Assembly (NCBI RefSeq): GCF_014211915.1
Contig: NZ_CP060039.1
Location: forward strand, 372,001-436,000
DNA length: 64,000 nt
From: Burkholderia cenocepacia
GTDB lineage: Bacteria > Pseudomonadota > Gammaproteobacteria > Burkholderiales > Burkholderiaceae
Direction: 5' to 3'
Shown piece after piece: positions 20,172 through 34,622 of the stretch. How positions within the stretch are numbered: the first letter of the stretch is position 1; each line of letters opens with the position of its first letter. The notes beneath the pieces were generated by a model. It made no database searches. It was not told where the DNA came from and saw only the letters and a list, made by a program, of their open reading frames with translations. Both the position numbers and the translations under genes were made by a program.

Positions 20172-20281
20172 GCGTGCCTCGTCCTCGTGAATTCGCCGTG
20201 TCGGGCGGTGCGGCGCGCGGGGTGCCGCGGCGCGCTGGTGTGCAGCGAGTGTAGAAAGCGACGGAACCGTTTTCAAGCAAT

Positions 20282-20313
20282 AAAAAACGCCCGCCATCGA
20301 ACGACGGCGAGCG
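20282..20313 (-). terminator. Rho-independent terminator after HiPIP
   Basis: On the minus strand CGCTCGCC pairs with GGCGGGCG (20306-20313 with 20288-20295, one G-T wobble). An inner TCG/CGA stem extends it, and TTTTTT follows (20282-20287). It ends the HiPIP transcript. Twenty bases of it (20290-20309) recur exactly at 30630-30649. Confidence 0.85.
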
Positions 20314-20361
20314 TGTTGCGGTTTTCGCCACATTGCGGCATCGCACGATGCCGCACGGGCC

Positions 20362-20673
20362 TCAACCCATCTTCGAGAAAGCGCTGCACCAGCCCTTCGC
20401 CGACACCTGCTTGCCGGGGAACGCGCCGCACGGGCCCGAAGCCGAGCCCTTCTTGCCCTGGTACAGCATGCAGGCCGCGCAATCCTGGCCCGCTGCGTAT
20501 TTCGGGTACTTCGTCTTGTCGACCTTCGTGGCATCGGCCTTGTAGCCGAGCGCCACCGCGGTCGGGTCCGTTTCCGGCAGCATCGGCGCATCGGCCAGCG
20601 CTTCGCGCGACAGCGCCAGCGCGGACACCGCACCAATGCTCGTGATCAGGAAACTCCGACGGGATGTTTTCAT
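20362..20673 (-). CDS. High-potential iron-sulfur protein (HiPIP)
   Basis: 103 aa. A Tat signal (SRRSFLITSIGAVSALALS) precedes the mature protein. The four [4Fe-4S] ligands are C65, C68, C82 and C96, with the family spacing C-x2-C-x13-C-x13-C. HiPIPs are periplasmic one-electron carriers, in some bacteria linking the bc1 complex to oxidases; the partner here is unknown. The gene is monocistronic with its own terminator, and the 283-bp repeat element begins 40 bp upstream of its start. Confidence 0.95.
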   Translation of the reverse strand: MKTSRRSFLITSIGAVSALALSREALADAPMLPETDPTAVALGYKADATKVDKTKYPKYAAGQDCAACMLYQGKKGSASGPCGAFPGKQVSAKGWCSAFSKMG

Positions 20674-20713
20674 GGGGGACTCGCTCCAACGTTATCGGTT
20701 TGAAAGCCGTTCT

Positions 20714-20996
20714 AGGGTCTGTCTACCGATGGAACGCACATGCGAAGGCCCGAAATCGCTCGCAGGGCAAGGAGGGAGGAGCGCCGTTTGGCCGAGCCAA
20801 ACAAGCGACGACCGACGCCGCCATGCGGGCGATTTCGGGCCTTCCCGTGAACACGCTACAAATTAGGGGTTGCCCCGAGAAGGGCCGCTCGCCACGTTGC
20901 GCACCTTGCGAATACGTCAGTATTCGCGGCGGCGCGCGCCTCGCGAGCGGCCCTTCTCGGGGCAACGCATGTGCGTTCCATCGGTAGACAGACCCT
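20714..20996. mobile_element. MITE-like element with 31-bp terminal inverted repeats and two internal hairpins
   Basis: Terminal arms at 20714-20744 and 20966-20996 are perfect inverted repeats of 31 bp (outer end AGGGTCTGTCTACCGATGG). Inside, arm A pairs 20745-20759 with 20829-20843 (15 bp perfect, extendable) and is tipped by a 7-bp hairpin at 20786-20802. Arm B pairs 20869-20892 with 20943-20966 (24 bp perfect) and is tipped by an 8-bp hairpin at 20908-20927. The fold is a three-way junction. There is no transposase, and I saw no clear target-site duplication. It fills most of the 439-bp gap between HiPIP and the oxidase gene; short ORFs across it are artefacts. Confidence 0.8.
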
Positions 20997-21112
20997 GGAC
21001 GACCGTTCGACAGAATACCGCTCAAGCGAATAAATGTGCGCGCCGAAATGCCGGAGATAAGGGATTCCACACGGGTTTCGCGCGGCCGGCCCGCACGGCG
21101 GCGGGCCGTGCG

Positions 21113-22222
21113 TCAGGCGCGCGACACCATGTCGCCTACCCGCTGCGCGAGCGCGAGCGACGCGGTGAGCCCCGGCGACTCGATGCCGAACAGGTTCACG
21201 AGCCCGCGCACGCCATGCTGCGCGGCGCCCTGCACGATGAAGTCGGCCGGCGGCTCGCCGGGCCCCGCGAGCTTCGGCCGGATGCCCGCATACGCCGGCT
21301 GCAGCGCATCGTCGGGCAGGCCCGGCCAGAACGCGCGGATCGACGTGTAGAACGCACCCGCGCGCGCCGGATCGACTTCGTAGCGCAGCGAATCGCACCA
21401 CTCGACGTCCGGCCCGAAGCGCGCCTGCCCGCCGAGATCGAACGTCAGGTGCACGCCGAGCCCCGCGCGCTCGGGCATCGGGTAGATCAGGTGCGAGAAC
21501 GGCGCACGGCCCGACAGGCTGAAATAATTGCCGCGCGCGAGATAAAGCGGCGGCACCCAGCGCGGATCGAGGCCGCGGGTGCGGCGCGCAAGCGCCTGCG
21601 CGCCGAGCCCCGCGCTGTTGACCACGCACGCGGCGTCGATCTCGGTCGGCGCGGCGCCACCGGTGCGCACGATGAAGCGCCCGCCGCCCAGCACGTCGAT
21701 CGATTCGACCGGAGATTGCAGCGCGCACACGGCGCCGTTGCGTTCCGCATCGCCGAGCAGCGCGAGCATCAGCTGGTGGCTGTCGACGATGCCGGTCGAC
21801 GGCGAGAACAGGGCCTCCACGCATTCGAGCGCGGGCTCGAGCGTCTGCGCCTCCGCGCGCGTGAGCGGCAGCAGGTCGAGCACGCCGTTCTCGGCCGCAC
21901 GCGCGGCAATCGCCTTCAACTGCTTCAGCTGCGCGGCGCTCGTCGCGACCAGCAGCTTGCCCGTGCGCCGGTGCGGCACGTGGTGCGTGTCGCAGAATTC
22001 GTACAGCAGGTCGCGCCCGTGCACGCACGACGTCGCCTTCAACGACCCGCGCGGATAGTAGAGCCCCGCGTGAATCACCTCGCTGTTGCGCGAACTCGTG
22101 CCCGTGCCGATCGCGTCGGCCGCTTCGAGCACGATCGTTTCACGCCCGCGCGCAGCCAGTTCGCGCGCAATCGCCAAACCGACGACACCCGCGCCGATCA
22201 CGACACAATCCGTCTGCTCCAT
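21113..22222 (-). CDS. FAD-dependent oxidoreductase, L-2-hydroxyglutarate oxidase-like
   Basis: 369 aa DAO-fold flavoprotein. The FAD-binding motif is [20 protein letters not shown] (residues 7-26), followed by [20 protein letters not shown] and, near the C-terminus, [20 protein letters not shown], all typical of LhgO/YgaF. These enzymes oxidise L-2-hydroxyglutarate to 2-oxoglutarate and pass electrons to the quinone pool. Related 2-hydroxyacid or amino-acid oxidases are the alternative. It is followed by the repeat element. Confidence 0.85.
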
Positions 22223-22401
22223 GGCTTTTTGCGCTGCTCGCGCGTCGATGGGGGAGAGAAGAATTGTACGTCCCGGTTCGCCCGTTTGCCGAACGCGTGC
22301 GCACCGCGTCGCGGCGATACGGACGGTGGTGCATGCAACGATGCGGCCGCAAGCGCGACGAACGCACGCGCGCGCGCCGCGGCCGTGCGCGCGTGGCCGC
22401 G

Positions 22402-34451: not shown

Positions 34452-34622
34452 GATCGGAGCCTGCTCACCTTGGGGCATTCGCATGCGCGTTGCATATGCA
34501 AACAGACCCTACACATCGTTGCGAATCCGGGGCGCGGCACGCCGGTGCCGCCCGCGGGAACAGCGCGCGCCGCGTGCGGCGCCGGGCCCGGGCGCCGCGC
34601 GCCCGTCTCCCGGAACACGGCC

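Follow-up and report, generated by a model that had tools for sequence, protein, structure and literature searches.

Gene-less transposons (MITEs) are commonly regarded as short-lived deletion products that are recognized by sequence. Elements of the NEMIS, ERIC, YPAL and RUP type have a TA target, the IS427 group has the target YTAR, and the correction of quasi-palindromes by template switching turns one arm into the exact complement of the other. MITEs with terminal inverted repeats (TIRs), insertion sequence (IS) partners and stable folds have been described (PMC10969869, PMC3852290, PMC5896051, PMC3733652), and the accessible text of these four papers describes no MITE family that is defined by its fold across genera. 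Our search of the open-licence literature found no description of the element reported here, which is not proof of absence.

This element is a 283-bp repeat in a 64,000-nucleotide stretch of Burkholderia cenocepacia DNA (the window), for which a first-pass annotation had offered three readings: a MITE, a structured RNA or a recombination target. With a probability of about 0.8, we read it as a MITE that occupies many sites and on which IS5-family transposases, encoded in ISs with like ends, are likely to act in trans; the predicted multi-arm fold that it keeps is constant in size and is probably required for the element to spread. It resembles the IS5-derived MITEs, of which one example has 252 bp, the partner ISMac15 and 12 copies, in being short and gene-less, in having its ends in common with IS5-family ISs and in occurring in several copies; those elements are archaeal, however, and the available part of the source does not describe a conserved multi-arm interior for them (PMC3852290). 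NEMIS (Correia), ERIC, YPAL and RUP, which are classed as MITEs, are similar in their size of 70–300 bp, TIRs, frequent position near genes and strong fold, but in the accessible sections of the source each is named for one host group, whereas the relatives of the present element are recognized by fold across an order and its class (PMC3733652). QMITE1 and QMITE2 of Coxiella burnetii (–113 and –193 kcal/mol; TIRs of 21–29 nt) likewise form long palindromic folds with TIRs and differ in their direct repeats, of 2–4 or 7–9 bp in the text available (PMC5896051; PMC10969869); no orthologues of QMITE1 were found by its authors, and the word ‘compensatory’ is absent from the text of that paper (PMC5896051). 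The REP/RAYT systems are also dispersed palindromic non-coding repeats and possible cruciforms, but REPs, as the accessible description has them, are 20–40 bp long with GTAG or CGTC tags, whereas the present element has 31-bp TIRs, a TA-type target and IS5-type helpers (PMC3733652). We rejected a REP/RAYT identity on the grounds that 283 bp with 31-bp TIRs is not a 20–40-bp palindrome, with the tags judged by eye.

The window copy lies, as first annotated, between a HiPIP gene and an oxidase gene, and comprises the following features.

20714..20996, + strand: whole element (MITE), 283 bp, as delimited by reading, fold and copy searches; + orientation means left arm first
20714..20744, + strand: left TIR, 31 bp, perfect
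20966..20996, – strand: right TIR, 31 bp, perfect
20744..20844, + strand: left long arm, 101 nt (from the fold)
20739-20768 / 20820-20849: left-arm stem, 87% complementary
20766..20774, + strand: left-arm module, 5′ side, GGCAAGGAG
20803..20822, + strand: left-arm module, 3′ side, AAGCGACGACCGACGCCGCC
20786..20802, + strand: left tip hairpin, GTTTGGC..GCCAAAC
20845..20868, + strand: linker joining the long arms (from the fold); in most folded distant relatives a CCCGAAGGG-type mini-arm of 7–11 nt
20869..20966, + strand: right long arm, 98 nt (from the fold); stem 20869-20892 / 20943-20966 pairs at 24/24 positions
20895..20910, – strand: right-arm module, 5′ side, CGTTGCGCACCTTGCG on the + strand, the module being read on the other strand
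20931..20942, – strand: right-arm module, 3′ side, GGCGCGCGCCTC on the + strand
20908..20927, + strand: right tip hairpin, GCGAATAC..GTATTCGC
20713..20714, no strand: TA of the left boundary, with TG at the right one (20996-20997), so that the TA duplication is not intact at this site
20362..20673, – strand: HiPIP gene (PF01355), with 40 bp from its start codon to the element
21113..22228, – strand: FAD-dependent oxidoreductase gene (PF01266), whose 3′ end faces the element

The nested inverted repeats claimed in the first-pass annotation are all there: the 31-bp ends are perfect, the right arm pairs throughout and both tip hairpins are where they had been placed. Folding of the 283 nt gives an MFE of –216.3 kcal/mol (RNA parameters) against –115.8 (sd 5) for shuffles, a z-score of –20.1, with none of 200 dinucleotide shuffles as good, which bears out the strong self-complementarity that had been noted. 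The proposed three-way junction holds for the window copy, whereas most of the folded distant relatives have a small fourth arm. No transposase is encoded in the 283 bp, and the longest overlapping reading frames are mechanical and extend beyond the element. Elsewhere in the window, at 34470-34510 on the – strand, lies a further piece of this family (L148), an end fragment of 41 bp with 80% identity.

Four full copies, 84–100% identical, and additional fragments were found in the genome that contains the window (7.6 Mb, four contigs). At E ≤ 0.001, and with the window's own genome included, matches were found in 56 of 65 genomes of the genus and in 70 of 299 genomes of the family, spread over 9 of its 25 genera. 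Flank similarity sorted 73 full copies (33 loci from the own-genome and genus searches and 40 further stretches; the genus list had more) into 48 loci, 12 of which are common to at least two copies, so the family is not confined to a single locus; the ends are conserved among its dispersed copies. An exact 34-base pattern found 17 stretches in named genomes, all of them Burkholderia, seven records of a plasmid collection matched (Burkholderia 5, Paraburkholderia 1, Caballeronia 1), and a search of phage records with the element gave no match. A second subfamily is represented by the query L142, which has 66% identity over positions 51–264 and differs in much of its stem sequence with the pairing retained; in 39 of the 65 genus genomes this query gave a best E-value of at most 1.7e-67, while the tally of 56 genus genomes in that search takes in cross-matches to the first subfamily.

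Individual copies vary in form. Three variants of 339–342 bp (L144, L145 and L146) have an extra paired left-arm extension, TCCCCCAAGGGGACTTCCT / AGGAAGTCCCCTTGGGGGA with small changes, and a 311-bp variant (L021) has one side only of that extension. A remnant of about 60 bp in L143 (about 1001-1060, G034) keeps both outermost ends, and in a 1.7-Mb genome of the same family (G092, L207) two diverged copies in opposite orientation flank one reading frame. A 1.4-kb end pair in L134 (G010), considered as an autonomous element, proved to be a copy with an IS110-family gene inserted; this RNA-guided transposase gene (NF033542; 1566-2702) splits the left arm near element position 65.

The left flank of the window copy is present in all 65 genus genomes. 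Of 30 loci read at the HiPIP site, 26 are empty and 4 occupied (the window's own genome G000, and G053, G049 and G011); a fifth occupant, inverted, is indicated in G062 by search coordinates alone. The empty site mostly reads GAAAGCYGTTC-TGGCG-ACRGCC, which is a small hairpin. Upstream of HiPIP in L087-L115, both stem sides of this hairpin (GCYGT-TCTGGCG-ACRGC) change among species, and it is possibly a 5′ regulatory hairpin of HiPIP. The same pre-existing hairpin, GCYGT..ACRGC, is probably the source of an outward extension of the TIR in the window copy, which runs for 73 nt at 75%. Lying 40 bp upstream of the HiPIP start codon, the element displaces the upstream region by about 280 bp; a consensus scan around HiPIP with the element in place found no promoter-like site and one terminator-like site (shuffle mean 0.8), and the same scan of one empty relative found neither.

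For ten other loci, the flanks were joined and searched in 14 genomes, and the 30 matches fetched gave 30 rows, with three loci yielding none. Contiguous empty sites account for 27 of these rows, from five loci; the L276 and L257 rows contain element sequence and the L263 row is ambiguous. Relatives that lack the element, which the first-pass annotation had expected of a mobile element, are thus found at the HiPIP locus and at five others. The join is exactly CT/AG in 13 rows from three loci, which fits TA insertion with duplication, and at the L059 locus TA stands at the join in none of 12 empty sites. Several sites resembled TAG or TAA, and we rejected insertion aimed at stop codons for want of any frame preference at the boundaries: among 155 T/AG boundaries, the stop-forming frame is open for 150 codons in 38, against 36 and 39 for the other frames.

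All 65 genus genomes encode transposases with DUF4096 (PF13340). Among 30 such loci, each judged on its three best end pairs, one (L215, in genome G021) has element-type ends, TAGGGTCTGTTCACATTCTC / TAGGGTCTGTTTACATTCGATG. The reading frame scanned there belongs to the IS5 family, scoring 183.9 bits with NF033580 (cut-off 110); ISs of this type span 826–828 bp from AGGG to CCCT, and a second copy is found at L253. The right end of the G021 IS, TAGGGTCTGTTTACAT, is common to the usual form of copies in group A, one of the two groups (A and B) of our genus alignment, with 16 nt including the TA identical; the left end of the window copy reads TAGGGTCTGTCTACCG and, with the T at 20713, equals it at 13 of 16 nt. 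Transposases similar to that of G021 (E ≤ 1e-40) are encoded in 9 of 65 genus genomes, and the window's own genome contains none at this threshold, so the copy there may be stranded.

A second pair of IS and MITE, with other ends, is found in G496, a genome of another family of the order. Inward-facing pairs of a common 20-nt end with few changes are spaced there at 270–272 bp (22 pairs) and at 859 bp (12 pairs), and of the sequences read, eight are MITE copies and five are IS loci, all five with the 859-bp spacing. The IS left end and the MITE ends have TAGAACCCATTTCATAAATAG in common, with 21 nt identical, and at L307 both transposase pieces score above the NF033580 cut-off (111.2 and 116.6 bits). 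At L307:2320-2359, TAGGGTCTGTTAAC lies just inside the 20-bp right end of an 859-bp IS, as if a new end had been placed outside an old one. The eight MITE copies, at distinct sites, are 0, 0, 0, 0, 1, 2, 2 and 15 bases off the commonest sequence, and on these few differences the family looks young in that genome. By eye, the element interior has no resemblance to the G021 or G496 IS sequences. Taken with the dispersed copies and the empty sites, the like ends of these IS5-family ISs favour the MITE option of the first-pass annotation, and these sequence comparisons suggest that mobilization in trans by IS5-family transposases is likely.

The shape of the element reaches further than its sequence. 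R1, a covariance model built from 19 sequences of the right arm, matched 70 of 300 genomes of the order, in 40 of 134 genera, and 16 of 274 genomes of the class, own included in each case; the palindromic model matches a single copy on each of its strands and gives approximate E-values. At 20 of 26 distant loci the sequence folds as a complete element, and the other six, partial or not resolved, were left out (L286, L289, L301, L336, L337 and L338). In these 20 together with the window copy and L151, the outer stem has 23–34 bp, the left arm 96–103 nt and the right arm 95–101 nt; the small arm between them has 7–11 nt in 18 of the 22, and 23–36 nt in the window copy, L151, L297 and L302. Outer arms pair at 510 of 528 positions within an element against 3468 of 11088 between elements, where their median identity is 0.29. 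The corresponding values are 284/330 against 2613/6930 for the left arm and 314/330 against 3078/6930 for the right, whose pairing is partly selected for because the elements were found through it, while the outer stem and the left arm lie outside the model. Arm lengths are thus conserved among elements whose stem sequences are unrelated.

An interrupted module, CAAGGCGC...GCAACGC, lies in each long arm, on one strand in the left arm and on the other in the right, which gives one module per DNA strand. The consensus of 44 arms, the right ones reverse-complemented, is gCaAGGcGCg.g.CGc - tip - aG....GCaACgC.G. In 10 of 22 elements, the left module and the reversed right one are more alike than in any of 200 shuffles; for the window copy, 65 of 200 shuffles do as well. 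At one locus of G496 (L309), the interruption is gone: in the right arm, the interrupted stretch reads on the 5′ side as the exact complement of the 3′ side, and the arm is left uninterrupted for 48 bp. The best single inversion leaves six mismatches, and a simple inversion was rejected as its origin; by reading, the altered arm is accounted for exactly if the 3′ arm was copied. This arm has been rewritten from its partner, an arm-templated correction like that known for quasi-palindromes; in this case the corrected copy is that of a mobile element in nature, and within the module correction apparently meets opposition. A closed 48-bp arm occurs in 1 of 157 element rows, some of them identical, and the longest tip stems elsewhere are 5–9 bp, except in L285 (17) and in L213 (14, a shortened copy). 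That correction occurs and the module nevertheless stays open suggests selection on the module.

The same correction gives the most serious of the alternatives its footing: the element would be an ordinary IS5-type MITE, its perfect stems owed solely to the self-correction of long inverted repeats, and its fold would have no function. The event seen directly in L309 speaks for it, and so does the variation of the stems within the genus. Our alignment held 127 distinct copies (85 in group A, 42 in group B), in which we counted pairs that were predicted on both strands and were mainly Watson-Crick. At least two Watson-Crick types occur in 25 of 79 pairs in group A and in 19 of 82 in group B. Between copies at the same locus (44 copy pairs from 12 loci, which are not independent events, with 3476 stem-pair comparisons), stem pairs have 46 two-sided differences and 29 one-sided ones, 11 of the latter involving L082. 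Compensatory change, whose absence would have told against the first-pass reading, is therefore plentiful. Some two-sided states are confined to one copy (for example, group A columns 16, 43 and 53), and are not simply imported from the sampled copies. Such two-sided changes are what self-correction would leave, as is the lack of a wobble bias described below. Self-correction should, however, close the modules too, and it does not account for arm lengths that are near constant in 22 folded elements. Stem sites, moreover, differ between same-locus copies at 121 of 6952 positions against 1338 of 24386 in the flanks (three L017 pairs omitted from the flanks) and 454 of 5552 at unpaired sites; unbiased correction would be expected to leave roughly neutral drift in the stems, whereas they differ less than the flanks. 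We therefore consider it unlikely that self-correction is the whole explanation.

A mobile structured RNA, a folded transcript acting in cis on neighbouring genes or in trans and itself the object of selection, is a still less likely reading. The predicted fold is very stable, the window copy lies between two genes, and MITE transcripts, in the accessible parts of two sources, fold stably and can alter the fate of mRNA (PMC10969869; PMC3733652). Stem mismatches point the other way. Of 10149 cells in the genus alignment, 116 are mismatched (G·T 37, A·C 39, other 40), and the ratio of wobble-type to other mismatches, 76:40, is near that of transitions to transversions in the flanks, 819:519. A G·T excess in the raw + strand fold (152 against 42) was an artefact of choosing pairs on the + strand and is gone when pairs are required on both strands with a Watson-Crick majority (29 against 34 over both groups). 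Because G·T is no more frequent than A·C, and an RNA made from one strand would tolerate G·U, the pairing looks to be kept at the level of DNA, although transcription of both strands would weaken the wobble test. The 22 elements of the distant set have 28 G·T and 20 A·C, their arms having been placed by a + strand RNA fold, which favours G·T. At seven loci, Rfam gave no family at gathering level; at E ≤ 1, window positions 20200-21200 drew seven matches to microRNA families, all below gathering and rejected as a family assignment. On the mismatch counts and the Rfam result, the structured RNA option of the first-pass annotation is not favoured.

Its recombination target, in the form of ends that invert the interior and so switch neighbours such as HiPIP, is highly improbable: relative to the flanks of the HiPIP locus, the G011 element (L017) has the opposite orientation to those of G000, G053 and G049, and coordinates suggest the same in G062, which lends the idea weak support, but the scanned neighbours include no recombinase, orientation matches between the compared copies at the 11 other shared loci, near-palindromic ends permit insertion in either orientation, and the consensus scan of the region found no promoter-like site.

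For a MITE whose fold serves its own spread, the role that we favour, the following course can be proposed. An IS5-type transposase of a like-ended IS would cut and join the element. When its strands separate, the arms would fold, and template switching could then copy a mutation of one arm into the other and so keep the stems perfect. Such copying would also erase the interrupted modules, and selection probably holds these open; each may be a site, one per strand, that is recognized in folded DNA during transposition or replication. A change of helper would replace the outer 15–20 bp and keep the interior. More tentatively, and with somewhat less than even confidence, we suggest an ancient mobile family defined by three-dimensional nucleic-acid shape rather than by sequence, with two arms of about 100 nt and inverted recognition modules, which exchanges its outer 15–20 bp to use the resident IS5-type transposase and whose folded DNA is read by a protein in transposition or replication.

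The interior geometry of these elements can be traced across the order and into the class and their stem sequence cannot, which implies long propagation together with a reason to keep the shape. With them, selection on a DNA fold in a selfish element and helper switching through changed ends become open to test, and one natural copy has caught arm-templated correction in place. Finders based on sequence similarity may miss the relatedness of such elements.
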